DNA from: Actinomyces respiraculi
Lineage (GTDB): Bacteria > Actinomycetota > Actinomycetes > Actinomycetales > Actinomycetaceae
Length of the DNA: 64,000 nucleotides
Direction: 5' to 3'
Assembly: GCF_014595995.2 (NCBI RefSeq)
Contig: NZ_CP063989.1
Coordinates: forward strand, 1,860,001 to 1,924,000
Positions 16,713-53,319 of the stretch are shown here, piece after piece (position 1 is the stretch's first letter; each line of letters starts with the position of its first letter). The position numbers were made by a program, and so were the translations under genes. The notes under the pieces were generated by a model. The model searched no databases. It saw only the letters and a program-made list of their open reading frames with translations, and was not told the origin of the DNA.

Positions 16713-18245
16713 TCAGCGAGCCCTGTCGGTGGGCGGGTGGGGGCGGGTGAGCACAGTGGAGACCGCTCGGCCCGGCACGAGGCGGCCGTCGACGACGAAG
16801 CCCTCCTCACGTCCCGTCAGTTCGGTCACGAGGGCCTGCCTGCCGGACTCCAGGTCAGCGGCGGCTGCGGGGTCCGCGGCGAGGTCATGGCACTCACCCG
16901 GGTCCTCCGTGAGGTCGAAGAGCTGCTCGCGCCCGTCCTGAGACCACCACACGTACTTCAGATCGTGCGTCTCGGGCGCGGGCCCTCGCCAGCGGATCCA
17001 CTGCAGGGACTGCTCGAACAGGGTGTGCTCGCCGTGGAGGTAGTCGCGCCAGGGCCCCGGTTCCTCGCCGCGCAGGCGGTCGGCCAGCGAGCGCCCCTCC
17101 ACGCCGTCGGGCACGTCGACCCCGGCGAGCTCGAGCAGGGTGGGCATGACGTCGCGCAGCTCGACGATCTCGTTGCAGTGGGTGCCGGGTCGCACGTCCG
17201 GCCCGGCGACAAGGAAGGGGATCCGGGCGGAACCCTCATAGGGGTAGCCCTTACGCCACAGGTTGTGGTCTCCCATCATGTCTCCGTGGTCGGAGACGAA
17301 GACGACGTACGTGTTCTCAAGGACCCCGAACTCCCCCATGGCCTGAAGCACACGAGAGATCTGCGTGTCGATGTGGGTCATGTGGCCGTAGTAGCCGGCC
17401 CTGGCCCGTTGCACGTCCCGCTCCCGGTACGTGGCCACGTGGCTTGAAGGGTCCCAGTCGCGGCGGCGCTCGCCGTAGGCCTCCTCCTCCCAGTCGCCGA
17501 CCACCGGGGGCTCGAGCGAGCCGTGGTTGTAGCGGTCGAAGGCCCACTGTGGCGGGTCGTAGGGGGCGTGAGGACGGTGGAAGGACAGGTACAGCAGGAA
17601 GGGTGCGGTGGGGTCCCTGCGGTAGAGCCAGCGGATCGCCTCGGAGGCCACCCAGTTCGTCGGGTGGAGCCTCTCGGGCTTGTCCCACGGGCGGGTGACG
17701 ACGGAGTTGCACTCGATGCCGTCGTCGAGATAGTCCTCAACGGCGCTCGTGCCGCCTTGTTCTCGCAGCCAGGTGAGGTAGTCGTCGTAGAGGGCGGCGT
17801 CGCGCTCACGGCGACGCGAGTGGTGCAGGTAGCCGTCGTGCAGGAGGACGTCGTCGAAACCGATACGCACCCTCTCCGGCCAGTAATGCATCTTACCGAT
17901 GGCCTGGGTCTGGTACCCGGCATCACGGAAGGCACGGGGCAGGGTGGTCTCGATGTCGAACTCGACGCCGTCGCGGTAGCCCACCCGCCGGTGGCTGCCC
18001 TGGCTGAGGCCGGTCATGAGGCTCATGCGGGCGGGCACGCAGGTGGGGGTGGACGAGTACGCCTGCGTCATCGCGGCTCCCCGACCCGCCAGCTGGTCGA
18101 GGTAGGGCGTCTCGACGTCGGGATGCCCCTGGCCGGACAGGCAGTCGCCGCGCCACTGGTCGACGCAAACGATGACGACGTTGGGGCGTCCAGCCGCCTC
18201 AGCCGGGCCGGAGTGCACCGGTTCCTGCGGCGCTGCGTGGCTCAT
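16713..18245 (-). CDS. Cys-type sulfatase (S1 family), sulfatase 1
   Basis: Sulfate-ester hydrolase of the alkaline phosphatase-like fold, 510 aa. The activation site is C69-V-P-A-R73; Cys69 would be converted to formylglycine. Metal-site motifs are VVIVCVDQWRGD and VSDHGDMMGDHNLW. There is no signal peptide, so it is probably cytoplasmic. It is the last gene of the run lacI - SBP - permease - permease - sulfatase, which suggests desulfation of a substrate after import. The ATG at 18245 has GGTGA just upstream. The sugar specificity is not evident. Confidence 0.93.
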   Translation of the reverse strand: MSHAAPQEPVHSGPAEAAGRPNVVIVCVDQWRGDCLSGQGHPDVETPYLDQLAGRGAAMTQAYSSTPTCVPARMSLMTGLSQGSHRRVGYRDGVEFDIETTLPRAFRDAGYQTQAIGKMHYWPERVRIGFDDVLLHDGYLHHSRRRERDAALYDDYLTWLREQGGTSAVEDYLDDGIECNSVVTRPWDKPERLHPTNWVASEAIRWLYRRDPTAPFLLYLSFHRPHAPYDPPQWAFDRYNHGSLEPPVVGDWEEEAYGERRRDWDPSSHVATYRERDVQRARAGYYGHMTHIDTQISRVLQAMGEFGVLENTYVVFVSDHGDMMGDHNLWRKGYPYEGSARIPFLVAGPDVRPGTHCNEIVELRDVMPTLLELAGVDVPDGVEGRSLADRLRGEEPGPWRDYLHGEHTLFEQSLQWIRWRGPAPETHDLKYVWWSQDGREQLFDLTEDPGECHDLAADPAAAADLESGRQALVTELTGREEGFVVDGRLVPGRAVSTVLTRPHPPTDRAR

Positions 18246-18253
18246 GGGTCACC

Positions 18254-19129
18254 TCATTTGATTCCGGTCATGGCGATGCCCTGAACAATGTGCTTCTGGG
18301 TGAGGACGAACAGCAGGCACACCGGGACGAAGAGCATAAGCGAGCCCATCGCGGTGAGGTTCCACAGCGTGAAGCTCTCCCGGTTGAACAGAGACAGCCC
18401 AATCGTAATCGTCCGCATGGCGTCGGACTTGGTGACGATGAGCGGCCAGAGGAACTCGTTCATCTGGAACACGAAGGTGAACAGCCCCAGCACCACGAGC
18501 GCGGGCTTGGTCTGCGGCAGGACGATGGAGCGGTAGATCCGCAGCTCGCCGGCGCCGTCGACGCGCCCGGCCTCAATGAGCTCATTGGGAACCCCGGCGA
18601 TGAACTGGCGCATGAGGAAGATAGAGAAGGCGCTCATGAGGAAGGGCGTGACCAGGCCCTGGTAGGTGTCGAGCCAGCCGATCTGGCTGAACCACACATA
18701 CAGGGGGATCATGCGCACGAAGAAGGGGATCATCATCGTCGACAGGATGAGGATGAAGAACACCTGCTTGCCCGGGAAGTCGAACTTCGCGAAGGCGTAG
18801 GCCACCACCGGAGCGAAGATCAGGTGGGAGCAGGTGATGAGGCCTGCCACGAGCACGGAGTTGAAGAAGAAGCGCCCGAAGGGCGCAGCCTCGAACAGGC
18901 GGGCGATGTTGCCCCACTGCATCTGCTCGGGCCACAGGACTGCGCGGCCTCCGGCGACCTCGGCGTCGGACTGGAAGGCGAGGGAGACCATGTACAGCAG
19001 CGGCGCGACCGCGACCAGCGCGGCCAGGGTGATGAGCACGAGGGACAGGACCCGGGCACCGGGGAACAGCTCCTCCTGCTTGAGCGGTGGGTTGGTCCGG
19101 ACGGCGGGGGTGGTGGAGGTCTGCTTCAC
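18254..19129 (-). CDS. ABC sugar transporter permease (MalG type)
   Basis: Inner-membrane permease of a CUT1-type carbohydrate importer, 291 aa, about six helices. The EAA loop reads EAGRVDGAGELRIYRSIVLP. GTG 19129 overlaps the stop of the partner permease (GTGA). No ATPase gene is nearby, so a shared MsiK/UgpC-type ATPase encoded elsewhere is assumed. Confidence 0.92.
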   Translation of the reverse strand: MKQTSTTPAVRTNPPLKQEELFPGARVLSLVLITLAALVAVAPLLYMVSLAFQSDAEVAGGRAVLWPEQMQWGNIARLFEAAPFGRFFFNSVLVAGLITCSHLIFAPVVAYAFAKFDFPGKQVFFILILSTMMIPFFVRMIPLYVWFSQIGWLDTYQGLVTPFLMSAFSIFLMRQFIAGVPNELIEAGRVDGAGELRIYRSIVLPQTKPALVVLGLFTFVFQMNEFLWPLIVTKSDAMRTITIGLSLFNRESFTLWNLTAMGSLMLFVPVCLLFVLTQKHIVQGIAMTGIK

Positions 19130-20049
19130 AGCGCGTCCTTCTTTCGGCCGACGGTCAGCTGAACGAGTGACAGGGCGAGGATGACGACCAGCAGGACGAA
19201 GGACATTGCCGAGGCGTAGCCCAGGTTCCCGCTGGCGAAGGTCTCCTGATAGACCTGGTAGACGTACAGGGAGGTGGCGTTGCCCGGCCCGCCGTTGGTG
19301 ACGATGTAGGGCAGACCGAACTGCTGCAGGGAGCTGATCATGCCGATGAGCATGACGAACAGGGTCGTCGGCGCCAGCAGTGGCAGCGTGATGGAGCGGA
19401 AGCGGCGCCAGACGCTCGCGCCGTCGAGACGTGCGGCCTCGTAGAGCTGGCTGTCGATGCTCTGGAGCCCGGCGAGGAACAGGAGCATGACGTAGCCGGC
19501 CTCCTGCCACACCGTGATGCCCACGAGCGTGGCCAGTGGGTGGGTGGACAGCCAGTGCTGCTCGGGCAGCCCGAGAGTATTGAGCACCGAGTTGAGCACC
19601 CCAGTGGTGGGGTCGAGCATGTTGCGCCACATGAGGCCGACGATCGCGATGGACGTCATGTAGGGGGTGAGGATCATCGTGCGCACGAGAGTGCGTCCAC
19701 GGAAACTCTGGTTGAGCACGACGGCGAGGAGGAGGCCGACGACTGTGGCCAGCACCAGGCAGGCCAGGGCGTAGATGAGCGTGATGAAGAAGGAGTGCCG
19801 CACCACCGGGTCGGTGAGGATGAGGCTGTAGTTCTTCGTACCCACGGGGGCCAGCGTGGTGAAGCCCTGGGTGAAGGAGAGCTGGAACTCGCTGAGAATC
19901 GGCCAGAAGAAGAAGATCCCGAAGTACAGGATCGCCGGAGTGAGGAACAGCAGGGCGGTGCGGCGCTGACGCCTGCCCATCCCCGCGCCCCGCCCCGCAA
20001 GGCGGGGCAGGGCACGGGTCGAGGCGCCGCGCGTGGTGGCGGCGGTCAT
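19126..20049 (-). CDS. ABC sugar transporter permease (MalF type)
   Basis: Partner permease of the sulfatase-1 importer, 307 aa. The N-terminal basic stretch (GRRQRRTALLFLTPAI) is followed by about six helices, and the EAA loop reads EAARLDGASVWRRFRSITLP. ATG 20049 lies 4 nt after the solute-binding protein stop, so the genes are closely linked in one operon. Confidence 0.92.
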   Translation of the reverse strand: MTAATTRGASTRALPRLAGRGAGMGRRQRRTALLFLTPAILYFGIFFFWPILSEFQLSFTQGFTTLAPVGTKNYSLILTDPVVRHSFFITLIYALACLVLATVVGLLLAVVLNQSFRGRTLVRTMILTPYMTSIAIVGLMWRNMLDPTTGVLNSVLNTLGLPEQHWLSTHPLATLVGITVWQEAGYVMLLFLAGLQSIDSQLYEAARLDGASVWRRFRSITLPLLAPTTLFVMLIGMISSLQQFGLPYIVTNGGPGNATSLYVYQVYQETFASGNLGYASAMSFVLLVVILALSLVQLTVGRKKDAL

Positions 20050-20053
20050 GGTC

Positions 20054-21370
20054 TCAGCCCTGCAGGAGGGGTGCGGCCGTCGAGTAGTAGGTCGCGACGG
20101 TGGAGGCCGGGTCGGCACCGTTGAGGATGACGTCCTCGTACATGACCTTCTCCGCCTCGGTGAGCTTGGCGGCGTTCATCGAGCTCCAAAACGCGCGGTC
20201 CGGCACGGTCGCGACCTCGCGGGCGGCGGCAACGACGGACAGGTTGGGGTTGCTCCTGACGGTCTCGGACTCGGCCCAGGACTTGCGCGAGCAGGCCATA
20301 CCGACCGTCGCAGTGACCTTCTCCTGGACCTCGGTGGCGGTCAGCGCCGTGATGAGTTTCCAGGCGAGCTCCGCGTTCTGGGACTTGGCCGGGATCATGA
20401 GGCCGGAGCCGGCGATCGTCGTGCCGCTGCCGCCGGGCCCGGTCAGCGGCATGCCGATGGTGAGCGGAAAGTCCGGGTTCTCGGTCATGATCGGGTTGAT
20501 GTCCCAGGGACCGGTGATGATGAGTCCGGCACGACCGGTGGTGAAGACCTTGCGCGGCGCGGAGTACTCGTTGGAGGCCACGGGCACGGGCGCGAGTGCG
20601 TCGGTGTAGATGAGGTCCTTCTGGAACGTCAGGGCCTCGACGAGCTTGTCGGAGGGGCCGATGGGCTCCTCGGACTTGGCGTCCCACTTCACACCGTTCT
20701 GCAGGTACCAGGGGCGGCCGTAGAAGCTGTCGTTGTTGAGCGCGCAGCCGTACTCGACGCCGGAGCCCTGGATGGCCTTGGCGGCGGCCTTGAACTCGTC
20801 CCAGGTGGTAGGCATGGCCACGCCGGCGGCATCGAGCATGTCCTTGTTGGCGAAGACGAGGCCGCCCATGGTCACGTGCAGCGGGATGCCGTAGGTCTTG
20901 CCGCCGTCCTGGCGCAGGGCCAGACCGGACTCGACAAAGTCGCTGAGGAAGTCGCCCTCCTCAGCGGCGATGAAGTCGTCCAGGGCCATGATGTTGCCGT
21001 CGGCGCCCCAGCGGGTGGACCACCAGCTGCCTCCCTCCTCAACGAGGTCGGGGGTCTGGCCGGACAGGAAGTCGGCGGTGAGCTTCTGCTGCAGGTCGCC
21101 CCACTGGAAGGTCTGGATGGTGACCTTGATCGAGTGCTCCTTCTCGAAGTCGGCAATGACGTCGAGGTAGGGCTGGTAGTCGTGGCCGGCCGAGAGGTAG
21201 AAGACCAGTTCCTTGCCGGTGCGCTCACCCTCGATGCCGCCTGCCTCGGCGGGGGTGTCAGGGTCGCCGGAGCCGACGCCCTGGGGGCTGGAGCACGCGG
21301 AGAGAGTCGCAGCGCTCAGGACGGCACCCCCGAGGAGGAGGGACCGGCGGGGAAGGGTGTGGTTACGCAT
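20054..21370 (-). CDS. Extracellular solute-binding lipoprotein (family 1), sulfatase-1 importer
   Basis: Substrate-capturing lipoprotein of the importer, 438 aa. The N-terminus has twin arginines (LPRRSLLLGGAVLSA), a hydrophobic segment and lipobox LSAC (Tat/Sec-type lipoprotein). The body fits carbohydrate SBP family 1. It sits 40 nt downstream of the LacI regulator and 4 nt upstream of the permease. The co-transcribed sulfatase suggests a sulfated oligosaccharide ligand (inference). Confidence 0.92.
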   Translation of the reverse strand: MRNHTLPRRSLLLGGAVLSAATLSACSSPQGVGSGDPDTPAEAGGIEGERTGKELVFYLSAGHDYQPYLDVIADFEKEHSIKVTIQTFQWGDLQQKLTADFLSGQTPDLVEEGGSWWSTRWGADGNIMALDDFIAAEEGDFLSDFVESGLALRQDGGKTYGIPLHVTMGGLVFANKDMLDAAGVAMPTTWDEFKAAAKAIQGSGVEYGCALNNDSFYGRPWYLQNGVKWDAKSEEPIGPSDKLVEALTFQKDLIYTDALAPVPVASNEYSAPRKVFTTGRAGLIITGPWDINPIMTENPDFPLTIGMPLTGPGGSGTTIAGSGLMIPAKSQNAELAWKLITALTATEVQEKVTATVGMACSRKSWAESETVRSNPNLSVVAAAREVATVPDRAFWSSMNAAKLTEAEKVMYEDVILNGADPASTVATYYSTAAPLLQG

Positions 21371-21410: not shown

Positions 21411-22436
21411 TCAGTTCCTCGTCGTGTGACGGGGAAACAACCGCCATCGTTCGACGATGGCGGAAGCAGTGGTGGAGCGGTCAGCCAGGCGCTCAAGGAG
21501 ATGAGAGACGACGGCGTCGACGGAGTCATCGCTCAGGCCGATGCTGGACAGGGCCGGGGTGTGCTCCTCCGCCTCGGCGGAGTTGCCAGTGCCCAGGACG
21601 CTGAGGGGCTCGGGCACGGCGACACCGAGCTGGGTAGCCGCCATGGTCACGCCGATGGCGACGCGGTCGGCGCCGCAGTAGATGACGTCGGGCAGCCGGC
21701 CCTCGTCGCGCATGCGGCTGAGAACTGCCAGCGCCTGCGTGAAGATGCGCGGCAGGGAGGTACCGGCGTGCATGAGCAACTCGGGCTCGGCTCCGCGGCC
21801 AGCCTGGAAGGCGGCGTAGGCCTTCCAGCGCTGGGTCTGGCGCGCGAGGTCGGCATCCTCCTCCTGCGCGGCCATGACGACGCGCTCGGTGCCACGCGGG
21901 CAGGTGTGGGCCAGAGCCTCTTGGATGGCGGCGTCCTGCTCGTAGTAGACGCGGTCGTAGCTCTCGGGGGTCGAGTCGGTGGAGCCGAGGATGACGGTGG
22001 GCACGGGCGGCACCGGCATCTGGTTGCACACCGCTTGGGCGAGCTCGGCGCCGACGCCGAGGATGCCGGCGTCGCAGATGCCCGAGCGCAGCGCGTTGAC
22101 AACGGAGGCGGCGTCGGAGTTGAGGACCGGTAGGGACAGGATCTGCATGCCGCTGCCCTCGAGGGCGTGTGCGGCCCTGAGCAGGTAGCGCTCGACGAAG
22201 CGGTCCATGGGTGGCTCATAGAAGAGCACGAGCGTGCTGGTCTCGCCGCGGCGCAGAGCCTGGGCGCTGCGATTGCGGACGTAACCGAGTTCCGAGGCAA
22301 CGGTGTTGATGCGGTTGGCGGTGGCGGTGCTGATACCGCGCCTGTCCGCCTTGCCTGCCAGGACGTACGAGACCGTCGAGGTGGACACGCCGCAGGCTTC
22401 GGCGATGTCGCTCAGGCGGGCTCGTCTCGGGTTCAC
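21411..22436 (-). CDS. LacI-family regulator of the sulfatase-1 operon
   Basis: 341-aa repressor. The N-terminal HTH/hinge is RLSDIAEACGVSTSTVSYVL and the C-terminal domain is a periplasmic-binding-like sensor. Start GTG 22436. It is the first gene of the operon ending in sulfatase 1. Two AAACGTT-type half-symmetric sites lie just upstream, so autoregulation plus control of the whole operon is likely. Confidence 0.9.
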   Translation of the reverse strand: MNPRRARLSDIAEACGVSTSTVSYVLAGKADRRGISTATANRINTVASELGYVRNRSAQALRRGETSTLVLFYEPPMDRFVERYLLRAAHALEGSGMQILSLPVLNSDAASVVNALRSGICDAGILGVGAELAQAVCNQMPVPPVPTVILGSTDSTPESYDRVYYEQDAAIQEALAHTCPRGTERVVMAAQEEDADLARQTQRWKAYAAFQAGRGAEPELLMHAGTSLPRIFTQALAVLSRMRDEGRLPDVIYCGADRVAIGVTMAATQLGVAVPEPLSVLGTGNSAEAEEHTPALSSIGLSDDSVDAVVSHLLERLADRSTTASAIVERWRLFPRHTTRN

Positions 22437-22521: not shown

Positions 22522-22888
22522 GTGGCCGGCGCCGTCGGCGGACGCAGGATTGATGTGCCCCGCTCTGGCACCCGCCCGACCTCCGAGCGGGTGCGCGAGG
22601 CGCTCTTCGCCCGCCTGGAGCACTACAACCTCCTGCGCGGCGCCCGGGTCCTGGACCTGTGCGCCGGCTCGGGCGCCCTGGGCCTGGAGGCAGCCAGCCG
22701 CGGGGCCACCGACGTCACCCTCGTGGACTCCTCCAGGACCGCCACCCAGGTGTGCGAGCGCAACATCCGCTCCCTCGGACTGAGCGGCGTGCGGGCAGTG
22801 ACGGCGAAAGCCGCGACCTTCCTGGCAGGCGCCGCAGGGGCGCCGGCGGACCTCGTGCTCATCGACCCTCCCTACGACCTGGATGAGG
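22522..22888 (+). repeat. 367-bp direct repeat, left copy (rsmD)
   Basis: Left member of a direct repeat with 40123-40489 (364/367 identical by eye; constant offset 17,601). It bounds the fucose-utilisation and IS-rich segment on the left. Confidence 0.9.
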
Positions 22889-23169
22889 AAGGGGTGCGCG
22901 CCGTGCTGGAGCCACTGACCCGCCATGAGGACCCGTGGCTGGAGGCGCGCAGCGTCGTCGTCCTGGAGCGCTCGACCCGCGCACCCGAGCCGGTCTGGCC
23001 GGCAGGCATGCGGTGCCTCGCGGACAAGACTTACGGTGAGACGCGCCTGTGGTTCGCGGAGCTGGACACGCCCGAGGAGCCAGCCTCCGAGCGCGGCGCC
23101 TGCGGTCTACTGGGACCGCAAGCCCAGGTGTACTTCCTTGGGGGGGTTGTGAACGGGTTGGGTAGGTGA
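22522..23169 (+). pseudogene. rsmD: Second, 5'-truncated copy of rsmD (16S rRNA m2G966 methyltransferase)
   Basis: It lacks the first residues of RsmD (MTRI) and begins at GTGGCCGGCGCC. The first 367 bp (22522-22888) differ from the complete copy at 40123-40489 at only three positions, including the SAM-binding and IDPPYD region. It then alternates between clearly diverged and identical stretches. The C-terminus runs off the family homology into the left edge of the IS481 element (GLLGPQAQVYFLGG). The SAM motifs are intact, so residual function cannot be excluded, but no RBS is seen and both ends look broken. Confidence 0.85.
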
Positions 23170-24241
23170 AGGCCTTCTGGGCAGGATGTGGGTTACCACG
23201 CTCACGTCCGGTCCAAGGAGGCCTTCATGACTCACGCTAACGCACCTTTGACGCCTGAGGGACGTCGTCGTCTGGCCCGCCTGGTGGTGGAGGAGGGCTG
23301 GTCGATGCGTCGGGCGGCTGAGCGTTTCCAGGTCTCACCGGCCACGGTCAGCCGGTGGGTGGGGCGCTACCGGGCCGGCCAGACAATGAACGACCGTTCC
23401 TGCCGTCCCCACCACACTCCCACCCGTCTGCCGGCTCGCACTGAGCGGCGCATCATCGCTGTGAGGCTCAACCGCCGGTGGGGGCCGCACAGGACCGCCT
23501 TCCACCTGCGCCTGGCGCGCTCGACGGTGGGGCGGGTCCTGACCCGTTACCGTATGCCCCGCCTGGCCGAGGTGGACCAGGCCACGGGGCTGGTGCTTCG
23601 ACGCCGGACCCCGGTGCGCTACGAGAAGGAGCACCCGGGCGAGCTGGTCCACGTCGACGTTAAGAGGCTCGGCCGAATCCCCGCCGGTGGGGGCTGGAGC
23701 GCCCACCGGCGCGGATCGGCTGCCGCCCTGGCCGCCGACCGCGCCAAGACCAAGTCCCACCGCAAGGGACAGACCGCCGGCGGGTAGCGGCACCTGCACC
23801 ACGCCATCGACGACCACTCACGCCTGGTCTGCTCCGAGATCCTCGAAGACGAGACCAAGGAAAGCGCCGCCGCGTTCTGGCGGCGCGCGACCGCGCGCTT
23901 CGCCTCCGTCGGCGTGCGCGTGCAGGCTGTGATGACCGACAACGGCGCCTGCTACCGCTCCCGGGCCTTCGCCCGGGCCCTGGGCGAGGACGTCACCCAC
24001 AAGCGCACCCGCCCCTACCGGCCCCAGACCAACGGCAAGGTCGAGCGCTTCAACCGCACCCTGATGAGCGAATGGGCCTACGCCCGCTCCTTAACCAGCC
24101 AGACCCAGCGCGAGACCGCCTACCAGGACTGGCAGCACTCCTACAATCACCACCGACCCCACACCGCCCTCGACGGCCTCACCCCCGCCAGCCGCGTCCA
24201 CAACCTCACAGGGAACTACACCAGGCCACCGCCACTTGACA
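23148..24241 (+). mobile_element. IS481-family insertion sequence (degenerate)
   Basis: About 1.09 kb. The ends are assigned at 5'-TGTGAACGGG (23148) and ...CTTGACA-3' (24241) because both begin TGT/ACA and share weak inverted similarity, as in the IS481 family. No target duplication could be recognised. Its transposase is interrupted. Confidence 0.65.
23227..24220 (+). pseudogene. IS481-family transposase with in-frame amber codon
   Basis: N-terminal HTH (WSMRRAAERFQVSPATVSRW) and rve/DDE integrase core (HAIDDHSRLV, MTDNGACYRS, RPYRPQTNGKVERFNRTL). TAG at 23785-23787 falls where the family has Tyr (G-Y-R before HLHHAIDDH), so the enzyme is broken before the catalytic core. The frame has no stop after the usual C-terminus (LTGNYT): ACC AGG reads where a stop would be expected, and the frame stays open into the downstream LacI gene. 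Start ATG 23227 has AAGGAGG upstream. Confidence 0.9.
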
Positions 24242-25350: not shown

Positions 25351-25609
25351 AGCCACGCCTACCTCTCGCGATCACGTCCCGGATCAATGGAGCCTGGGCG
25401 CCAGTCGGGCTGCCCGCACGCACCGCCGCCCCGCACGGCACACGCCTCAGTAGCCACTGGCGAGAAGAGGGGGCGGACGAAACCCTGGATGTCAGCGCTC
25501 ACTCACCTCACACTCGCCACGAGCACCCCCCTTCTCTTCAGTCGATCACAAGCGCCCACAGTTCCCCACTATTTCGCTTGATTTCAGGCAATTCTGCAAA
25601 CTACAGGGC

Positions 25610-25636
25610 TTGACACCTTCCTGCGGCTCCCATAAT
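25610..25636 (+). promoter_or_regulatory. Sigma-A-type promoter of the fucosidase operon
   Basis: -35 TTGACA at 25610-25615 and -10 CATAAT at 25631-25636 with 15-nt spacing (or TAATGT at 25633-25638 with 17 nt). The -10 abuts the operator-like site TGTGAGCGCCATCA. Confidence 0.65.
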
Positions 25637-25649
25637 GTGAGCGCCATCA
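25636..25649 (+). promoter_or_regulatory. Operator-like site Fuc-1
   Basis: TGTGAGCGCCATCA matches the site at 39220-39233 (TGTGAGCGCAAACA) at 12 of 14 positions and shares its AGCGC core. It overlaps the start of the -10 region of the fucosidase operon, a classic repression position. Confidence 0.6.
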
Positions 25650-25731
25650 TTCACCAGCTCCGGTGACACAGCCGGATCCCAGCGGCGGCAGCAATGAGGC
25701 AGCCCCGCTCGCTCAGAGAAGAGAGAAGACC

Positions 25732-37388: not shown

Positions 37389-37399
37389 GATGCGGTCCT

Positions 37400-39233: not shown

Positions 39234-39234
39234 C

Positions 39235-39264: not shown

Positions 39265-39293
39265 GTACAAAAGCGAGAACGCACCCGTAGACA

Positions 39294-39307
39294 TGAGAGC
39301 GCTAACA
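39294..39307 (+). promoter_or_regulatory. Operator-like site Fuc-3 (fucA side)
   Basis: TGAGAGCGCTAACA, with perfect AGCGCT core, 74 bp (about seven helical turns) from Fuc-2. It overlaps a possible fucA -10 (TAACAT 39303-39308). A half-site TGTTAGCAC follows at 39318. Confidence 0.65.
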
Positions 39308-43200: not shown

Positions 43201-43202
43201 TC

Positions 43203-44156: not shown

Positions 44157-44162
44157 CAGGCC

Positions 44163-45446: not shown

Positions 45447-45463
45447 AAGGACTCCTTTGTCGA

Positions 45464-45625: not shown

Positions 45626-46846
45626 TCAGCTCGCCTGGTCGGTCAGCCGCGCGAGTACCCCAACATCCGCGCCAATCATCGAGGCCCCAACCAGCGAGGC
45701 GTCATCACCCAGCTCACCCACCGAGATGCTCAAGGACCCACAGTCCTGGTGAGCACGCACGCGCCGTCCGACCTCCTCGACGAAGTCCGGGCCGAGATAC
45801 ACCGGCCAGCCACCAATCGTCATACGACTGGGGCGCGCCAGCAGCGCGATCATCACCACCGCACGTGCCAGGTCGTCGGCCAGGGCGGCCAGCACCCCTG
45901 CCGCGCGGCGGTCACCATCAGCTGCCACAGCGGCGACCTGGCGGCAGTAGTCCTCCATGTAGCGCGGATCCTGGCTGGGACTCACCCTCAGGTCCTCAGT
46001 ACGCCTCATCAACGCGGTAAATCCAAGTACCGAGTCCACGCAACCGTTCCACCCGCAGGTCTCACACAGCGGCCCGGAGGGGTCAAGCGGGATGTGGCCG
46101 ACCGGCAGGCTGCTCTCCCGGGGAGGCAGGCTCGTGTCCCATCCCCCTGGGCACCCGGCCCCGAGACCGATGCCGCACTGCAGGTGCACCAGCTCCGACC
46201 TGTCAGGCAGCTGGTCACCTTGTTGCCCGGCCTGGTAGCTGAGGTACTCAAAACTCGCCTGGGCGGCACAGCGGGACACGTCCAGCACCCGCAGCGGCAC
46301 CCCCGGCAGGTAGGGCGCCAGCAGTCGGGCGACATCGACGTCCTTCCAGCCCAGGTAGAGGGAGGCGGCGATGCCTTGCCCGTCATCGGTGGCCGCCCCT
46401 CCCACCGAGACCCCCACACCCACCACGTGGTGAGGACAGTCCCGCCGCAGGGCCTGGATACGCTGTCCGACCTCAGACAGGACCTGCACGGGATCGGTCC
46501 CCGGGACCATGCGCCCCTCCCAGCGTCCCAGCTCGACGCCAGACAGGTCGCGCAGGAGGACCGCGCACCTATCGATCCGTAGCTCGACGCCCACGCTCGC
46601 CAGCACTCCGGCCCTCATCCGCAGACCGGTGGCCGGCCGCCCCCCGGCACTCGTGCCTTGCGCCGGGACCTCACTGACCAGGTCCTGGCTGACCAGCTCC
46701 TGGACGATCCGCGTGATCGAGGCCTTCGTCAGCCCTGAGCGTCTGCCCAACTCAGGACGGGTAATCGGACTGCAACGCTGAATCAGGCCCAGGACAAGAA
46801 CCTGGTTGTGCTCGCGCATCTCCCTATGCCGCAACGCCTCGGGCAT
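45626..46846 (-). CDS. ROK-family transcriptional regulator
   Basis: 406 aa: N-terminal winged HTH (ITRPELGRRSGLTKASITRI) and ROK sugar-binding domain with the zinc motif CETCGWNGCVDS. ATG 46846 follows GGAGGG. It lies directly upstream of the sulfatase-2 importer operon on the same strand, and a dyad sits in the intergenic region. Likely a sugar-responsive repressor of that operon. Confidence 0.9.
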   Translation of the reverse strand: MPEALRHREMREHNQVLVLGLIQRCSPITRPELGRRSGLTKASITRIVQELVSQDLVSEVPAQGTSAGGRPATGLRMRAGVLASVGVELRIDRCAVLLRDLSGVELGRWEGRMVPGTDPVQVLSEVGQRIQALRRDCPHHVVGVGVSVGGAATDDGQGIAASLYLGWKDVDVARLLAPYLPGVPLRVLDVSRCAAQASFEYLSYQAGQQGDQLPDRSELVHLQCGIGLGAGCPGGWDTSLPPRESSLPVGHIPLDPSGPLCETCGWNGCVDSVLGFTALMRRTEDLRVSPSQDPRYMEDYCRQVAAVAADGDRRAAGVLAALADDLARAVVMIALLARPSRMTIGGWPVYLGPDFVEEVGRRVRAHQDCGSLSISVGELGDDASLVGASMIGADVGVLARLTDQAS

Positions 46847-46905
46847 CCTCGCGATCCCTCCTCGATAACCTCCCCCGCCACAGGCCAGGGCCGCGCCGCC
46901 ACAGC

Positions 46906-47010
46906 GCACGGACGGCGGTGATCACCGCCACGGCCAGGAGCAGCGCGACGACAAGATAACTCAGGGCCGAGGCGCGCGCCCGTTGGGACGGCGGTCTGCC
47001 GGCGCCGCGC
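46906..47010 (-). pseudogene. C-terminal remnant of a TauE/SafE exporter gene
   Basis: On the minus strand this encodes SQRARASALSYLVVALLLAV followed by AVITAVRAL. That is nearly the same as the C-terminus of the intact TauE/SafE gene at 51197 (SQRARASTLSYLFVALLLAV...). The DNA at 46906-46993 matches 51206-51293 with about eight differences. No start or upstream domain is present. It is the relic of a second exporter gene next to sulfatase 3. Confidence 0.85.
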
Positions 47011-47024: not shown

Positions 47025-48506
47025 TTAACCCACCATTTTGTCCACACCGTCCATCGACTTCTCCCCCAGCACGTAGGTGCGGGCATCGTCATAGCCGTCG
47101 CGCGGCGGGTGTACCTGTCCACGCCCGCGCACCTCACGGTGGTAAGCCCGTTCAGTGGCAGTCTCGTGGTCGCGGAACCACTCGTGCAGCTCGTCAGACA
47201 GCTCACGGACCACAGCCGCGCGGGAGGGCAGGTCTGCCAGGTTCTCCCGCTCCAGTGGATCGGCGTCGAGGTCGTAGAACTCGCGCGGCCCGTCGTAGCG
47301 GTCGACGAACTTGTAGGCCCCCTTGCGGATCATGCGGCCGCCACCGTACTCGTCGTAGACCACGACGGGCTCCTCCGCCTCGGCCTCGCCCCGCAGCAGA
47401 GCGGCCACAGAGCCCGCGCCGCGCAGCGGATCCGGTTCGACACTGATCCCCGCCAGCTCACAGAGCGTGTCGAAGAAGCTGCAGGCGGACACGCACTGCT
47501 CCACCACTCGCGTCTTGTCCTGCCCCGGCAGAGAGATGACACAGGGCACGCGCACCGAGTTCTCCCAGAAGTTCAACGGGAATGTCCCGTTGCCCTTGCC
47601 CCACAGGCCGTGATGACCACAGCTGAAGCCGTTGTCCGCCATGTAGATGATGACGGTGCTCTCAGCCAGGCCGTGCTCCTCGAGCGAGTCGAGCAGCGAG
47701 CGCACGGCCCGGTCCACCCCGGTCAGTGAGGCTGCGTAGCCCCGCAGGCTTGGAACTGGGTCCGCGAAGGCCGCAGCGAAGTCGTCGTAGGTCTTGGTCC
47801 AGGGGTGAGGCTCCTCCCGGGGCACGGAGGGGAAGTCCGTGTCCGCGTACAGGTCGGTCAGCTCGGCCGGATGGTTGTTGAGCCATGGAGAGTGCGGGGC
47901 GGTGAAGCTGACCTGGAGGTAGAAGGGTGGGCGGGCGCCGTCGGCACCGGTGCGTGAGGCGATCTGGGCAATCATCTGGCACGCTTCCTCGGCGATCGCA
48001 TCGGTGAAGTAGCGGGGCTCCTCGGCCTCCTGCCCGTCGGACGTCCAGATGGGAGCGTTGTAGTAGGGGCCACCACCGTAGCGGTGGGCGTACCACAGGT
48101 CGAAGCCGGGTGCAGGGTGCTGCGAGGTTCCCACGTGCCACTTGCCGGACATGGCGGTGACATAGCCGGCCTCGTGCAGGACCTCCGGAAGGGTCGCCAT
48201 CCCCTCTAAGAAGGTCTCCTCACGGTCGTCGGGGTGGCGGCCACCCACCAACCAGTCGTGGACCCCGTGCGCGGACGGCATGTAACCGGTCATGAGGGAC
48301 GCACGCGCCGGGGAGCACACGGGTGAGGCGCAGTAGTAGTTCTCAAAGACCGTGGCGTGCTCGGCGATCTCATCGAGGGTGGGGGTGATGAGCTCGGGCC
48401 AGTAACGGCTGGTTGCCCAGGGCCCCTGGTCGTCGGTGAGCACGAAGAGGAAGGACAGCGGAGTCGTGCTCGTCTGGTTGTTCTCGTTGTTCTCGGTCGT
48501 GGACAT
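47025..48506 (-). CDS. Cys-type sulfatase (S1 family), sulfatase 3
   Basis: 493-aa sulfatase. Activation site C64-S-P-A-R68 in ASPVCSPARASLMTGYM; LFVLTDDQGPW and YMADNGFSCGHHGLWGKGN supply metal/active-site residues. No signal peptide. ATG 48506 was chosen because the upstream extension is compositionally unlike the family. It is divergent from a LacI regulator 73 bp away and paralogous to sulfatase 2. It has no importer of its own; the divergent regulator and the MFS transporter beyond it may form its unit. Confidence 0.93.
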   Translation of the reverse strand: MSTTENNENNQTSTTPLSFLFVLTDDQGPWATSRYWPELITPTLDEIAEHATVFENYYCASPVCSPARASLMTGYMPSAHGVHDWLVGGRHPDDREETFLEGMATLPEVLHEAGYVTAMSGKWHVGTSQHPAPGFDLWYAHRYGGGPYYNAPIWTSDGQEAEEPRYFTDAIAEEACQMIAQIASRTGADGARPPFYLQVSFTAPHSPWLNNHPAELTDLYADTDFPSVPREEPHPWTKTYDDFAAAFADPVPSLRGYAASLTGVDRAVRSLLDSLEEHGLAESTVIIYMADNGFSCGHHGLWGKGNGTFPLNFWENSVRVPCVISLPGQDKTRVVEQCVSACSFFDTLCELAGISVEPDPLRGAGSVAALLRGEAEAEEPVVVYDEYGGGRMIRKGAYKFVDRYDGPREFYDLDADPLERENLADLPSRAAVVRELSDELHEWFRDHETATERAYHREVRGRGQVHPPRDGYDDARTYVLGEKSMDGVDKMVG

Positions 48507-48579
48507 GTTGGTGGCTCCGGGGTGGGTCTCAAGTATCGCGGTTACGATGGCGACAAACGAAGAGGTGGAAAGGTCGGGC

Positions 48580-49569
48580 GTGGCACGGGCGACGAGAGCA
48601 GACGTGGCCAAGGCGGCAGGAGTGTCGGTTGCGACGGTCTCGCACGTCATGAATGGCCGGGCCGAGGAGCTTGGCTTTTCGCCGGACACTGCGCAGCGAG
48701 TCCGGCGGGCCGCCAAGGCAGTCGGTTACATCCCCAGAGCTGCGGCCAGGGCATTCCGGTACCAGTCGAGCAAGGTCATCGCCTTGTTCTTCCCGGACCT
48801 GCCGGTGTCCCTGCGGCTGCCTGTGTTCAATGAGGTCCTGACCGGGTGCATCGACGCGGCCCGGGCCCGGGGGCACTTCATCCTGCCGGTACCGATCTCC
48901 GCCAATCCCTACGAGGTGGTGGAGGAGACTTTGCGCGAGGTGGAGCTCGCGGGGGCCGTGTGCCGTGCCGACCCGTCGATGGAGCCTGCCGGGGAGCTCC
49001 TCAGCCGCTCGGAGGTACCCACGGCCTGGATCAACACCGGCGGTGAGGCCGTGCCCGGGCCTGGGTGCGCCAGCCTGGGGATCGACGAGGCCCGCGGAGT
49101 GCGTGACATGCTTGACCGAATTGACACCGACAGCGTGGCACGCCCAGTCGTGCTTCTGGGACCGGGCAGGCGGTCTGACCGTGTCAGGCCCTTCCTGGAG
49201 CGGTTCCCCCAGGCGCAGATCCTCACCGCGCAGGGATGGTTGTCCGACGACGCCCGTCTGAGCGCGAATGCCGCCGTGGAGCAGGGTGCCGACCTGTTCT
49301 TCACCGGCAACGACCAACTCGGCGTCGGGGTGCTCGAGGTCCTCCACGAGCGCGGCAGGAACGTTCCGGGTGACGTTCAGGTCTTCAGCTTCGGGGACGT
49401 CGAGAGCGGGCCTGCTGCGCTGCTGGGCCTGTCCTCCGTGAAGTGGCCTGTGAACGAACTGGGGGCACTGGCCGCGGCAGCCGTTATCGAGGGAGGATCC
49501 GCGCCCAGCCCCTTGGTGACCACGCTGCCGACCTGCGCAAACCTGCGCAGTACGACACGCCTGAGGTAG
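48580..49569 (+). CDS. LacI-family regulator divergent from sulfatase 3
   Basis: 329 aa; HTH TRADVAKAAGVSVATVSHVM, then a ligand domain (FTGNDQLGVGVLEVLHERGR). GTG 48580 has GGAAAGG 6 nt upstream; ATG 48547 is an alternative without an RBS. Divergent from sulfatase 3 and convergent with the MFS transporter, so a likely local repressor. Confidence 0.88.
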   Translation: MARATRADVAKAAGVSVATVSHVMNGRAEELGFSPDTAQRVRRAAKAVGYIPRAAARAFRYQSSKVIALFFPDLPVSLRLPVFNEVLTGCIDAARARGHFILPVPISANPYEVVEETLREVELAGAVCRADPSMEPAGELLSRSEVPTAWINTGGEAVPGPGCASLGIDEARGVRDMLDRIDTDSVARPVVLLGPGRRSDRVRPFLERFPQAQILTAQGWLSDDARLSANAAVEQGADLFFTGNDQLGVGVLEVLHERGRNVPGDVQVFSFGDVESGPAALLGLSSVKWPVNELGALAAAAVIEGGSAPSPLVTTLPTCANLRSTTRLR

Positions 49570-49643: not shown

Positions 49644-51014
49644 TCAGCGCTCCGCGTGAGCGACGGCAGGCTCCTGTGCGCTGACCGACTCCAGATGGTC
49701 CGAGGTATTCGCCAGCCAGGGATTGGCCAGAACCAGAAGGAACATGAGCAGATAGACCAGCCCGAAGGGGGCAATGGCGTAGTAGCCGTACGTGGCGACC
49801 AGGACAGGGATGAGGAACACCACGGTGGCGGACATGACGCGCGCCATCGCCTGTGTGAAGCCCGCGCCGAAGCCTCGTAGCTCAGTGGGGTAGGCCTCCA
49901 CCGACCAGACGACGGAGAGCATGCCCGGCCCGAGGTAGGTGGTGAAGCTCCACACGATGAAGGCCCCGAAGAGGAGGATCTGCGAGACCCCACCGAACAG
50001 CCCGAGCACGGCTGCAGCCGCGGTGAGAACGGCAGAGGTTGCCAGCCCCAGAGCACGCCGGTTGACCTTGTCGATGAGTGCGGCCCCGACCAACAGGGCG
50101 ACGGCGGCCACCGAGTTGGCGGCAAGGGTGACCAACAGGTTGTTGGATTCGGGAATGCCGGCCTCCGCAAAGATGATCGGCCCCATGAAGGACACGACTG
50201 GTCCGGCAGTCGAGTTGAGCATGAAGAAGGCCGTGCACACGATGACACGACGGCGGGCCTCGCCGTGGAAGAGGGAGCGGTACTCGCGGTTGGTCTTCTT
50301 GGGCTTGGCCTCAGTGATCTCTTCCGAGAGTCCCAGCGCGTGGATGATGGCCCAGGCCTTGTCCTCCTGTCCGTTTTGGATGAGCCAGCGGGGGGACTCG
50401 GGCAGACGGCGGCGCAGCATGAGCACGATGAAGGCGGGGATGGCGGCGAAGAGGAACATGCCTCTCCAGATCCACTCCTGGTGGGCCTCCGGGACGACGG
50501 CGTAGAGCACCAGCGCCAGTAGCACGGAGAAGATCGCGCCAAGCACGAGCATGATGTTGAGCAGCGAGCCGGTGATACGTCCGCGCCGCGCCTTCGGGGC
50601 GATCTCCGCCAGGAACGCCGCCGAGGTCGACAGGTCCATTCCGATGGCCACGCCGATGAGGAAGCGCATGACCCACAGCATCCACACCTGGGTGATGAGG
50701 GCGGCTCCGATAGCGGTGAGGATGAAGACCCACAGGTTGAAGGCGAAGACGCGCTTGCGTCCGATCCGGTCTGACAGGTCTCCGAAGACGACCAGGCCGA
50801 GGGCCGTGCCGATGAAGGAGATGGCCACCAGCAGACCCTTGTCCGCAGCGGTCAGGGTGAAGTCCTTGGTGAGGAAGACCATCGCGACACCGATGACGGT
50901 GAGGTCGTAGCCATCGATGAACTCGCCGAAGGCGATGAGGGTCGAGGAGTGCTTCTTGATGAACCTGGCACGCTGAGGATCGATCTCGTACGCGCCGATA
51001 TCTGTGCTGGACAT
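49644..51014 (-). CDS. MFS sugar porter
   Basis: 456-aa, 12-helix major facilitator of the sugar-porter type. Signatures GDLSDRIGRKR (loop 2-3), RRRLPESPRWL (loop 6-7) and DKVNRRAL (loop 8-9). ATG 51014 is preceded by GCGAGAG; ATG 51029 is also possible. The substrate is unknown; the context suggests a monosaccharide or glycan breakdown product. A palindromic operator-like site lies upstream. Confidence 0.9.
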   Translation of the reverse strand: MSSTDIGAYEIDPQRARFIKKHSSTLIAFGEFIDGYDLTVIGVAMVFLTKDFTLTAADKGLLVAISFIGTALGLVVFGDLSDRIGRKRVFAFNLWVFILTAIGAALITQVWMLWVMRFLIGVAIGMDLSTSAAFLAEIAPKARRGRITGSLLNIMLVLGAIFSVLLALVLYAVVPEAHQEWIWRGMFLFAAIPAFIVLMLRRRLPESPRWLIQNGQEDKAWAIIHALGLSEEITEAKPKKTNREYRSLFHGEARRRVIVCTAFFMLNSTAGPVVSFMGPIIFAEAGIPESNNLLVTLAANSVAAVALLVGAALIDKVNRRALGLATSAVLTAAAAVLGLFGGVSQILLFGAFIVWSFTTYLGPGMLSVVWSVEAYPTELRGFGAGFTQAMARVMSATVVFLIPVLVATYGYYAIAPFGLVYLLMFLLVLANPWLANTSDHLESVSAQEPAVAHAER

Positions 51015-51044
51015 GGCTCTCGCTTTCATGAGGGTCCACGCGTC

Positions 51045-51079
51045 ATCGCGTGCCCACAAGCACATTATCACGCGATAAT
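51045..51079 (-). promoter_or_regulatory. Nested inverted repeats upstream of the MFS porter
   Basis: ATTATC (51064-51069) / GATAAT (51074-51079) form a tight palindrome. ATCGCGTG (51045-51052) pairs with CACGCGAT (51069-51076) over 16 nt. They lie 31-65 bp upstream of the MFS start and probably contain a repressor site; the binding protein is unknown. Confidence 0.5.
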
Positions 51080-51196: not shown

Positions 51197-51982
51197 TCAC
51201 CGCAGCGCCCGGACGGCGGTGAGCACCGCCACGGCCAGGAGCAGCGCGACGAAAAGATAGCTCAGGGTCGAGGCGCGTGCCCGTTGCGACAGCGGTCCGC
51301 CCGCCGCTCCACCCGCTGCCGAGGCCGCGGTGAAGGCCAGCGTTAGGGCCCAGTCGATCTCCACCATCCCCGTCATCCGCTGGGCCAGCGCCGCCAGCGC
51401 CGCGATCACCATGACCACCAGGGAGGTTCCCGAGGCACGGCGGATGTCGAGGCCGAGAACCAGGGTCAGCATCGGGACGACGGCGAATCCCCCACCCACG
51501 CCGAAGAAGCCGGTCAACAGCCCGGTCACGGTGGCCGCCACCGCCACCAGCCACCAGGAGCGCCGTGGGGCGCCGGCCGCCGTCGTCGTCCCCCCTGCTC
51601 CGTCCGGGGCCGGGTGGTAGGTCCGCCGCGTCCGCCACGCCATGACCGCGGCGACGACGACGAGCAGGACCGAGAAGGCGATCATCAGGGCCTGGCCCTC
51701 GACCAGGGCGTTGAGCCAGGAGCCCCCGACAGCACCGACGGTCGACAACAGACCGACGACGATGCCTTCGCGCCATCTGACCTGCTGCCGCCGTGCACGC
51801 GAGGGCAGCGAGACCAGGGCGGTCACCATGACGATGACAAGCGATTCGCTGGCCGCAGCGTGCGGTGACTGCCCCAGCAGGTAGACCAGGATCGGGACCG
51901 ACAGGATCCCTCCGCCTGCCCCCAGTGCCCCCACCACCACACCGACACATGCCCCGATAAGCAGGGCGGTTACGATGGTCAT
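51197..51982 (-). CDS. TauE/SafE-family sulfite/organosulfonate exporter
   Basis: 261-aa membrane protein with two repeated halves, each starting with a Gly-rich motif (VVGALGAGGGILSVPILV and LTGFFGVGGGFAVVPML), typical of TauE/SafE anion exporters. ATG 51982 overlaps the stop of the sulfatase-maturase gene (ATGA), so the two are coupled. In an island with three cytosolic sulfatases it is the natural candidate to remove sulfate or sulfite; the ion is inferred. Confidence 0.92.
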   Translation of the reverse strand: MTIVTALLIGACVGVVVGALGAGGGILSVPILVYLLGQSPHAAASESLVIVMVTALVSLPSRARRQQVRWREGIVVGLLSTVGAVGGSWLNALVEGQALMIAFSVLLVVVAAVMAWRTRRTYHPAPDGAGGTTTAAGAPRRSWWLVAVAATVTGLLTGFFGVGGGFAVVPMLTLVLGLDIRRASGTSLVVMVIAALAALAQRMTGMVEIDWALTLAFTAASAAGGAAGGPLSQRARASTLSYLFVALLLAVAVLTAVRALR

Positions 51983-53319
51983 CGGTCTGCTCTTTCCTCG
52001 CGGACGGCCACACCGGGCGGCCCGGCTGGGCGCATCCGCTCACGCGTGTCCGGGTCCATGATCTCAGCAGGTGCACGGCCGGCATGCACCAACCGGGCCA
52101 TCGCCAGCAGGTCGGGCAGGATGTGGGAGTAGAAGTGGCCATAGCCCTGGCACAGGTAGTTCTGCCCCTCCTCGCCGTCGGATGAGCGCATGAAGCGGTC
52201 CTTGGGGCAGCCGCCGTTGCACAGCCCCAGCACCGGGCACCGACGGCACTGCGCGGTCAGCTCTACCCGCTTCTTGCGCGAGAAGCGGTGCATCACCGTC
52301 GTGTCTGCCAGCTCGGCGAAGGAGTTGTCCATGATGTTGCCCAGGCGCCAATCCGGCTCCACCCAGTGGTCGCAGGCGTAGACATCGCCGTTGAACTCCA
52401 TGGCGAGGTTGACGCCGCACTCGGGGGCATGGACGCACACCGGGTAGATGCCGAAGAGGGCGGACAGCGCCGCGTCGAAGTCCTGGACGAAGACGCGCCC
52501 GACGTCGTGGCGGGCCCACTCGTCAAAGACCGTGGTGAGGAAACGGCCGTAGGCCTGGGGGCTGACGCTTCGCGAGGTCACGGCGTCTCCGCTCTGGGTG
52601 TAGAGCAGGCGTGCGCCCTGAGCCGAGCGCCAGCCGGCCTCGGCCGCGGGCAGATCAGCGCGCTCGACGCGCTCGACGATCGGGATGAACTGGATGTAGC
52701 AGGCGCCGAGCTCGTCACGCAGGTAGCGGTAGACCTCCAGGGGGTGATCCTGGTTCGCGGCGTTGACCGTGCACAGCACGTTGGTGCGCACCCCCGCCTC
52801 GTACAGGTGCCGGTAGCCGCGCACCACCATCGAGTGGGTGCCGCGACCACCACGGTTGACCCTGTAGGCGTCATGAAGCGGGGCCGGCCCGTCGATTGAC
52901 ACCCCCACCAGGACGTCATGCTCGGCGAGAAAGGCCGCCCACTCCTTGTCGATGAGGGTGGCATTGGTCTGCAGTGCGTGGCGGACCTGCTGGGTGGGGC
53001 GGCGGTAGGTCTCGCACATCTGAAGTGCCTTGCGGAAGAAGGGGATACCACGAAGGGTCGGCTCCCCGCCCTGCCACAGCACCGTCACCTCACCATCGGG
53101 GCCGGCGGCGAGCAGCTCGCGGATGTACGCCCGTGCCGTCTCCTCGCTCATGAGCTGGCGAGGCACGTCGTAGAGCAGCTCCTTGGACAGGAAGAAGCAG
53201 TACTGGCAGTCCAGGTTGCAGGCGGCTCCCGTGGGCTTGGTGACCACGGACAGGGGCAGGCGCGGCCGGTTCACCGGCCCCTCGCCTACGTGGTCCTCAG
53301 GGCTGTCAGTACGTGCCAC
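51979..53319 (-). CDS. Anaerobic sulfatase-maturating enzyme (radical SAM, SPASM)
   Basis: 446-aa enzyme that oxidises the active-site Cys of sulfatases to formylglycine, O2-independently. Radical SAM cluster C34-N-L-D-C38-Q-Y-C41; WQGGEPTLRG next. SPASM auxiliary-cluster cysteines are in CVHAPECGVN, VYACDHWV, CRRCPVLGLCNGGC and YLCQGY. Start GTG 53319. It serves all three Cys-type sulfatases of the island, and its stop overlaps the TauE/SafE start. The recG 3' end lies 143 bp away. Confidence 0.95.
   Translation of the reverse strand: MARTDSPEDHVGEGPVNRPRLPLSVVTKPTGAACNLDCQYCFFLSKELLYDVPRQLMSEETARAYIRELLAAGPDGEVTVLWQGGEPTLRGIPFFRKALQMCETYRRPTQQVRHALQTNATLIDKEWAAFLAEHDVLVGVSIDGPAPLHDAYRVNRGGRGTHSMVVRGYRHLYEAGVRTNVLCTVNAANQDHPLEVYRYLRDELGACYIQFIPIVERVERADLPAAEAGWRSAQGARLLYTQSGDAVTSRSVSPQAYGRFLTTVFDEWARHDVGRVFVQDFDAALSALFGIYPVCVHAPECGVNLAMEFNGDVYACDHWVEPDWRLGNIMDNSFAELADTTVMHRFSRKKRVELTAQCRRCPVLGLCNGGCPKDRFMRSSDGEEGQNYLCQGYGHFYSHILPDLLAMARLVHAGRAPAEIMDPDTRERMRPAGPPGVAVREERADR

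Follow-up and report, generated by a model that had tools for sequence, protein, structure and literature searches.

We analysed a stretch of 64,000 nucleotides (nt) from Actinomyces respiraculi (contig NZ_CP063989.1, positions 1,860,001 to 1,924,000; hereafter the window), whose genome is a single contig of 2.91 Mb. Positions 16650-53462 of the window, flanked exactly by coaD (which ends at 16649) and recG (which starts at 53463), hold genes for three sulfatases (SulA, SulB and SulC), the sulfatase maturase anSME, a TauE/SafE-family permease, three ATP-binding cassette (ABC) importers, fucose catabolism and local regulators. This interval probably consists of independent cassettes for sugar catabolism, stacked at a recG-rsmD-coaD docking site. 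A preliminary description, drawn from the sequence, had treated it as one island. The gene list of that description was confirmed by Pfam and NCBIfam family searches of the island's open reading frames (ORFs), including its local LacI and ROK regulators, to which a third LacI gene (48436-49569) has to be added. It had also missed two equal-length transposases of insertion sequence (IS) type, a broken transposase that we take to belong to the IS481 family, a second rsmD and a transporter of the major facilitator superfamily (MFS). The features are, in window coordinates:

16026..16649, minus strand: coaD, left boundary (TIGR01510, 164.5 bits, over the cut-off)
16713..18245, minus strand: SulA (sulfatase A), Cys-type S1 (PF00884; NF010322 arylsulfatase over the cut-off; solved relatives 9koq and 7oz8)
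18254..20118, minus strand: importer A, two permeases at about 18254-19129 and 19126-20050 (PF00528)
20054..21370, minus strand: lipoprotein-like solute-binding protein A (PF01547; translation; start picked by eye)
21411..22436, minus strand: LacI-type regulator A (PF00356, PF13377)
22522..23169, plus strand: rsmD copy 1, a chimera (PF03602)
23188..24228, plus strand: broken, presumably IS481-type, transposase in two frames (PF13683; translation)
24352..25350, plus strand: LacI-type regulator B of the fucose module (PF00356, PF13377)
25488..25649: two predicted operator sites (25488, 25634) upstream of sbpB (relatives' conservation; relatives-only matrix)
25663..28725, plus strand: importer B, solute-binding protein and two permeases (PF01547, PF00528)
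28729..30057, plus strand: GH29 alpha-L-fucosidase (PF01120, 252.9 bits; nearest solved structure 1hl8)
30469..34268, minus strand: two tandem transposase genes (PF01609 in both; the first passes the IS1634 model)
35044..35316, minus strand: truncated fucP, residues 21-111 of 444
35371..39172, minus strand: fucU (35371-35799), fucK-like kinase (35865-37388) and fucI (37400-39172)
39218..39307: two predicted operator sites (39218, 39292) in the fucI-fucA spacer (relatives' conservation; relatives-only matrix)
39378..40049, plus strand: fucA-like class II aldolase (PF00596)
40111..40692, plus strand: rsmD copy 2
40779..42278, minus strand: SulB (sulfatase B), Cys-type S1 (PF00884)
42295..45449, minus strand: importer C, two permeases and solute-binding protein (PF00528, PF01547)
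45626..46909, minus strand: ROK-family regulator (PF00480)
46889..47003, minus strand: orphan tauE 3' end adjoining the ROK gene (88% like 51190-51304)
47025..48506, minus strand: SulC (sulfatase C), Cys-type S1 (PF00884)
48436..49569, plus strand: LacI-type regulator C, divergent from sulC (PF00356; ORF limits, the true start being later)
49644..51071, minus strand: MFS transporter, sugar-porter type (PF00083, 189.4 bits)
51197..51982, minus strand: TauE/SafE-family permease (PF01925, 161.5 bits)
51979..53319, minus strand: anSME (TIGR03942, over the cut-off)
53463..55820, minus strand: recG, right boundary (NF008167 falls short of its cut-off, with 827 against 995 bits; other RecG models listed likewise below theirs)

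The flanks have GC contents of 0.726 and 0.752 and the rsmD copies of 0.727 and 0.751, against 0.62-0.69 in the cargo modules. Neither mark of an integrase-borne island (an integrase or a tRNA site) was found: there is no tRNA within the 64-kb window and no integrase among the island ORFs scanned, where only IS-type transposases occur.

The recG-rsmD-coaD site in related genomes

Of 48 congeners, 45 were viewed at this locus (all but G030, G048 and G050). The rsmD gene is present in all 49 genomes of the genus, that of the window included, and is antiparallel to recG in 43 out of 43 and to coaD in 37 out of 37 loci where both genes are in view. The genes fucI, fucK, fucU and fucA lie beside rsmD, on its coaD side, in 11 of the 45 loci (G003, G020, G022, G023, G025, G028, G032, G037, G041, G042 and G047), and five of these fucose cargos include GH29 and importer B (G020, G025, G037, G042 and G047). 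Remnants of fuc genes are found at the site in G016, G045 and G049. Cargo with anSME or a sulfatase lies between recG and rsmD in 5 of the 45 loci, with a sulfatase in G004, G035, G038 and G039 and with anSME-TauE-ROK alone in G009; an anSME fragment is found at the site in G046. As recG and rsmD are only 23-79 nt apart in all 11 fucose carriers, these hold no sulfatase cargo there. Moreover, eight of these carriers have no anSME match, and in the others (G022, G037 and G047) anSME is located either 1.5 Mb away or on a different contig, where its viewed surroundings of 17-20 kb contain neither rsmD nor fuc genes. Fucose cargo together with anSME or sulfatase cargo was found in none of the 45 relatives' loci viewed; the window alone has both.

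A beta-galactosidase gene of family GH2 was found at the same site in 14 of the 45 loci, 12 times between rsmD and coaD and twice (G028 and G039) beside rsmD with coaD out of view; two of these 14 loci were scanned with Pfam. GH2 is a third sugar cargo (loci L042, L043, L080, L213, L214, L215, L228, L230, L231, L232, L234, L239, L247 and L249). Pyruvate carboxylase, considered as the filler of the 3.5-4.4 kb gap between rsmD and coaD in many relatives, was ruled out, this gene being GH2. In 13 loci, the distance between rsmD and coaD is 103-282 nt. Other stacks are found in G028 (GH2 and fucose) and in G009 and G039 (anSME cargo and GH2). Our searches of an open-licence library turned up no published description of this coaD-recG-rsmD hotspot.

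The cassettes travel with their own transporters. SulA and importer A adjoin anSME-TauE in G005 and G006, importer C occurs with SulB in G038, G039, G119 and G151, and importer B precedes GH29 in 10 of the 13 GH29 loci examined. Near SulC, the MFS gene is found in G004, G009, G035, G061, G083, G111, G195 and G196, while none was seen there in G134.

The interval also carries scars at rsmD and tauE. Compared with copy 2, copy 1 of rsmD is missing four codons at its start. The two are about 99% identical over about 340 nt, after which the 3' part of copy 1 resembles copy 2 at about 82% and is closest to the gene of G009 (88%) and G039 (87%). Copy 2 is nearest to G038 in both its 5' and 3' parts. 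The orphan tauE 3' end, of 115 nt, matches together with the start of the ROK gene the tauE-ROK junction of G009 (89.5% over 162 nt). It is 4.3 kb from the end of the intact tauE, with the MFS-LacI-SulC cassette between them, and this stretch is 81.5% identical over 4080 nt to a stretch of the G004 hotspot, where it lies between recG and anSME. Such scars would be the expected trace of recombination at an anchor gene that leaves one end duplicated.

Starting at the recG end, the stack would comprise anSME-TauE followed by ROK-importer C-SulB, with the MFS-LacI-SulC cassette as an insertion between tauE and the ROK gene. Next come rsmD copy 2, the fucose cassette (fucA, fucI/K/U, truncated fucP, the IS pair, GH29, importer B and LacI B), the second, chimeric rsmD and, at the coaD end, LacI A-importer A-SulA. 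The cassettes were probably united by homologous recombination at conserved anchor genes, leaving the duplicated rsmD and tauE ends. Taken singly, the gene sets belong to known types; what is new is how they were stacked. We put forward more tentatively, as a possibility somewhat short of an even chance, a general docking site of Actinomyces that would exchange and stack whole sulfatase, fucose and beta-galactosidase cassettes by homologous recombination between conserved anchor genes (no integrase being seen), composite glycan loci thereby arising through allele stacking, together with a travelling maturase-exporter pair in which TauE would be a dedicated sulfate exporter.

Fucose module, importers and operator sites

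Among the fucose genes announced in the preliminary description (fucI/K/U/A), FucI is certain, with both NF008220 and TIGR01089 over their cut-offs. FucU is slightly below its cut-off (128.4 against 141 bits), the closest model to the FucK-like kinase is rhamnulokinase (323 against 528) and the FucA-like aldolase is below the cut-offs shown; the FucK and FucA labels are assigned by context. The GH29 fucosidase matches PF01120 and has no signal-like N-terminus by the hydropathy heuristic given below, as had been announced. Only 91 residues of fucP are left, next to two IS1634-type transposase genes, and no second match, hence no intact FucP, was found in the genome. Since this symporter is lost while the frames of importer B and GH29 are open, the module points to an uptake of fucosides rather than free fucose via importer B. 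The cassette would be autonomous: cytosolic GH29 would release fucose from imported fucosides, FucI, FucU, FucK and FucA would degrade it and, fucP being truncated, importer B would be the sole fucose route left in the module.

The three ABC importers are present as three CUT1-type sets, each with a binding protein and two permeases, but the scan of the island ORFs found no ATPase for them. One UgpC-type ATPase is encoded elsewhere (genome positions 247015-248133; 467.4 bits against a cut-off of 432), which fits the habit of Actinobacteria of sharing one ATPase between importers. The solved relatives of binding proteins A, B and C are weak, and therefore no importer substrate is claimed. Small sugars would enter via the three importers and the MFS transporter, each with a neighbouring regulator.

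To locate operators, we used LacI-type sites conserved in relatives, where 14 loci from 10 genomes have them in the fucI-fucA spacer and five in the LacI B-sbpB spacer. The matrix was built from the relatives' sites only, the window being excluded. Its four best places in the window are upstream of sbpB and between fucI and fucA (14.9-27.9 bits), and the next match (11.9 bits) lies inside a permease gene. At a threshold of at least 12 bits, six matches were found in the window, all at these four places, against 1-3 in each of five shuffles that kept the single-base content; at a threshold of at least 8 bits, there were 17 matches against 5-13 per shuffle. With this matrix, no match is listed upstream of sulB, sulC or sbpA in the window. 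The clear predicted operator sites are therefore confined to the fucose module, which supports separate control, and their position suggests that LacI B would bind all four.

The preliminary description had instead proposed one integrated pathway, in which host glycans both sulfated and fucosylated would be imported whole, then desulfated and defucosylated inside the cell. The modules are indeed adjacent in the host genome, the sulfatases and GH29 have no signal-like N-termini and three GH20 domains are encoded elsewhere in the genome. In addition, among the 213 genomes of the family Actinomycetaceae, GH29 is present in 41, anSME in 57 and both in 19 (odds ratio 3.0, p 0.003, kinship uncorrected; chosen cut-offs of about 1e-90 for anSME and 1e-60 for GH29). 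Within the genus, however, the association is not significant, either for GH29 and anSME (odds ratio 3.1, p 0.20) or for fucose cargo and anSME (1.35, p 0.72). Furthermore, the relatives hold the cassettes apart, the fucose operator is confined to its own module, recombination scars separate the cassettes of this mosaic and fucP is truncated. A single island was rejected because the relatives carry the cassettes separately, and an integrated pathway is unlikely. The gene content is real and the one-pathway reading is mostly unsupported; of most interest is how the interval was assembled at a hotspot for sugar cargo. A gene neighbourhood should not be equated with a single pathway.

Sulfatases, anSME and the TauE permease

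The three Cys-type sulfatases had been correctly recognized, as all three match PF00884 and carry the CxPxR motif (CVPAR in SulA, CSPAR in SulB and SulC). For signal peptides we used a hydropathy heuristic, i.e. the best 12-residue mean within the first 45 residues, plus the start of the core. The maxima are 1.45 for SulA, 0.38 for SulB and 1.32 for SulC, against 1.87-1.90 for the island's three binding proteins, and the hydrophobic stretches of SulA and SulC extend into a core strand. The PF00884 core begins at residues 23, 20 and 19, respectively, and a core starting at most 23 residues from the N-terminus leaves scant room for a signal peptide. By this heuristic alone, no signal peptide is visible in the three proteins.

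The coupling of anSME to TauE/SafE holds as well, with scores of 430.6 bits for TIGR03942 (cut-off 349.45) and 161.5 bits for PF01925 (curated cut-off 32.6) and a 4-nt overlap between the two frames. As established for its family, anSME would turn the active-site cysteine of SulA, SulB and SulC into formylglycine in the cytosol. These would free sulfate intracellularly, and its removal would fall to TauE, the frame of which overlaps that of anSME at the latter's end. Of the proposed cytosolic maturation and desulfation, both steps are likely, with importers and regulators adjoining the sulfatases.

Nearest to SulA among solved structures are 9koq (389.6 bits), an E. faecium arylsulfatase, and 7oz8 (317.8 bits), which is BT1918, an S1_46 enzyme acting on 3-sulfo-GlcNAc, i.e. 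sulfated N-acetylglucosamine (PMC10154612, PMC10154620). SulB and SulC have similar scores to several sulfatase subfamilies, which gives no placement. The SulC query returned no match in four Bifidobacteriaceae/Corynebacterium genomes, an empty answer being uninformative in that search. A glycosaminoglycan route by lyase and GH88 was ruled out, as the genome gave no GH88 match (the control search was positive in 3 of 14 genomes). The genes nagA and nagB were not among the island ORFs scanned, in a search limited to the island.

The resemblance of SulA to 9koq and its passing of the NCBIfam arylsulfatase model would suit sulfatases that act not on host glycans but on small sulfate esters, aryl or other, or that scavenge sulfur. 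Another sulfatase of the genome, moreover, sits with an NMT1-like binding protein, and proteins of this type are used for sulfonates. We consider such a role improbable, as the neighbours of SulA, SulB and SulC are sugar-type transporters (PF01547/PF00528 or PF00083), the second solved relative of SulA is a 3-sulfo-GlcNAc enzyme and exporting sulfate would waste sulfur.

We then looked at the distribution of the anSME-TauE pair, as the preliminary description had proposed. An anSME match was found in 69 of the 213 family genomes at 1e-3, of which 57 at about 1e-90. From 39 of these 57 genomes, 40 anSME loci were examined, i.e. 39 near-full-length genes and one fragment. In this sample the pair is recurrent, with TauE directly downstream and on the same strand in 26 of the 39 near-full-length loci. 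A wider scan of genome contigs, which partly overlaps the Actinomycetaceae genomes and from which the best 80 of 568 loci were kept, gave Actinomyces sp. AC-20-1 as the nearest named relative by anSME (84% identical). Within these best 80 named loci, 14 have a TauE neighbour, including two from Corynebacterium and those of Galliscardovia and Alloscardovia. No TauE was found beside the anSMEs of Demequina, Tessaracoccus and Proteobacteria, where more distant TauE proteins may escape the profile, built from those of Actinomycetaceae, and where some loci have short flanks.

A quick anSME tree was built from 77 rows (two from the host genome and 75 of 89 loci), with near-duplicates, low scores and motif-less rows dropped, L131-L161 outside and L066 coded as TauE-less although a same-strand TauE was seen there. 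One branch (SH-aLRT 100) has TauE in 32 of its 39 rows, and a single further TauE row lies outside it. The pair is therefore old and, without being universal, mostly retained within this branch. In some relatives (G004, G073, G114 and G146) the anSME match holds internal stops, which hints at recurrent loss.

A linked step of sulfate disposal by TauE is plausible. In acesulfame degraders, a TauE-like exporter adjoins a sulfatase of a different fold (PMC10413263). TauE might alternatively move other sulfur species than sulfate, for example by supplying or protecting the iron-sulfur enzyme anSME, since the 26 of 39 loci in which it comes after anSME have sulfatases that vary in type or lie out of view. 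We give this role little credit, since the accessible text of the same report (PMC10413263) describes the family as exporting anions, and cytosolic sulfatases would generate sulfate at that very place.

Several observations count against a stack of independent cassettes served by a maturase-exporter pair. The spacer upstream of anSME holds a weak operator-like match (53448, 9.1 bits), a point for an integrated pathway, at a level that the shuffles also reach, and the family-level co-occurrence of GH29 and anSME leaves room for a possible shared niche. A donor with rsmD adjoining the SulA cassette is absent from the 45 loci viewed. The adjacent TauE is missing in 13 of the 39 anSME loci, the second anSME of the genome has no TauE within the 8 kb viewed behind it, and on the quick tree no fewer than 8 changes of the TauE label are required (24.9 in shuffles). 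The cytosolic location of the sulfatases is suggested by hydropathy and core start alone. Finally, 9koq, the closest solved structure to SulA, was assayed on peptide and steroid sulfate (PMC12421950), and TauE-family proteins, termed poorly characterized, are reported for sulfite and sulfonates (PMC10413263).

Known systems and additional loci

Among the closest known counterparts is the Bbr_0846-Bbr_0853 locus of Bifidobacterium breve UCC2003, with an intracellular sulfatase and growth on GlcNAc-6-sulfate (PMC7326374, PMC6045583). Like the island, it belongs to a high-GC Gram-positive bacterium and shows a row of sugar transport protein, sulfatase and atsB, an Fe-S oxidoreductase that we take to be an anSME. 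The island is of this kind in its Cys-type CxPxR motif, its linked anSME and its linked sugar transporter and regulator. In contrast, the B. breve locus is adjoined by nag genes, and neither TauE nor a fucose cassette is described there in the accessible text. An accessory region of Streptococcus pneumoniae comprises a ROK protein, a phosphotransferase system (PTS), a sulfatase, a sulfatase-modifying factor and a TauE-like protein (PMC3283741). It shares with the island the ROK regulator, a sugar transporter, the sulfatase, its maturation factor and the adjacent TauE-like gene, but differs by a PTS instead of ABC and MFS transporters and by its phylum, and the accessible part of its description has no fucose cassette.

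In Streptobacillus moniliformis, the glycosaminoglycan cluster Smon0120-0128 combines ABC import of sulfated disaccharides with a sulfatase predicted to be cytosolic, and extracellular sulfatase activity was not found, according to the accessible text (PMC5430744). This bacterium differs in being Gram-negative and in having lyases and GH88, the latter without a match in the host genome. In Actinomyces and others, fuc genes are clustered with a predicted ABC transporter (PMC5583593), whose binding protein is AraF-like, whereas that of the island is of the SBP_bac_1 type. The Bacteroides sulfatases belong to the same S1 family, and SulA resembles BT1918 (S1_46); those of the heparin route are, however, periplasmic (PMC10154612, PMC10154620), and the BT1918 motif has a serine where that of SulA has a cysteine.

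The strategy of importing first and desulfating inside, presented in the preliminary description as distinct, is therefore already known from B. breve and Streptobacillus, and the island is a further case in Actinomyces. For this genus, our searches of an open-licence library yielded no account of a cytosolic-sulfatase strategy. A host-associated Gram-positive genus can build glycan-use loci piecemeal at one site. The position of TauE after anSME in many Actinomycetaceae and some relatives opens a testable question, namely whether it is the missing step of intracellular sulfate disposal.

In the whole genome, five sulfatases and two anSME matches were found, of which two sulfatases and one anSME, 57% identical to that of the island, lie outside the window. 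A second sulfatase locus (genome positions about 684754-690193) contains an MFS_2-type symporter, a LacI-like gene (by eye), a sulfatase with a strong SGSH_C match and this second anSME. The fifth sulfatase is located 6-8 kb beyond the window end (about 1930321-1935933), next to genes for a binding protein of NMT1-like type, a permease and a ROK protein, and a relative of it is present in 21 of the 40 anSME loci of the family.

In the transposase pair (30469-34268), both genes are of the DDE_Tnp_1 type and equal in length, with a period of 2073 nt and an exact repeat of 1400 nt; a 59-nt flank of the pair is present twice, at 30420 and 32210. On the other side of coaD, positions 2702-9365 encode subunits I and II of a cytochrome bd oxidase together with two ABC-transporter proteins, in what we take to be a cydABDC-like order.

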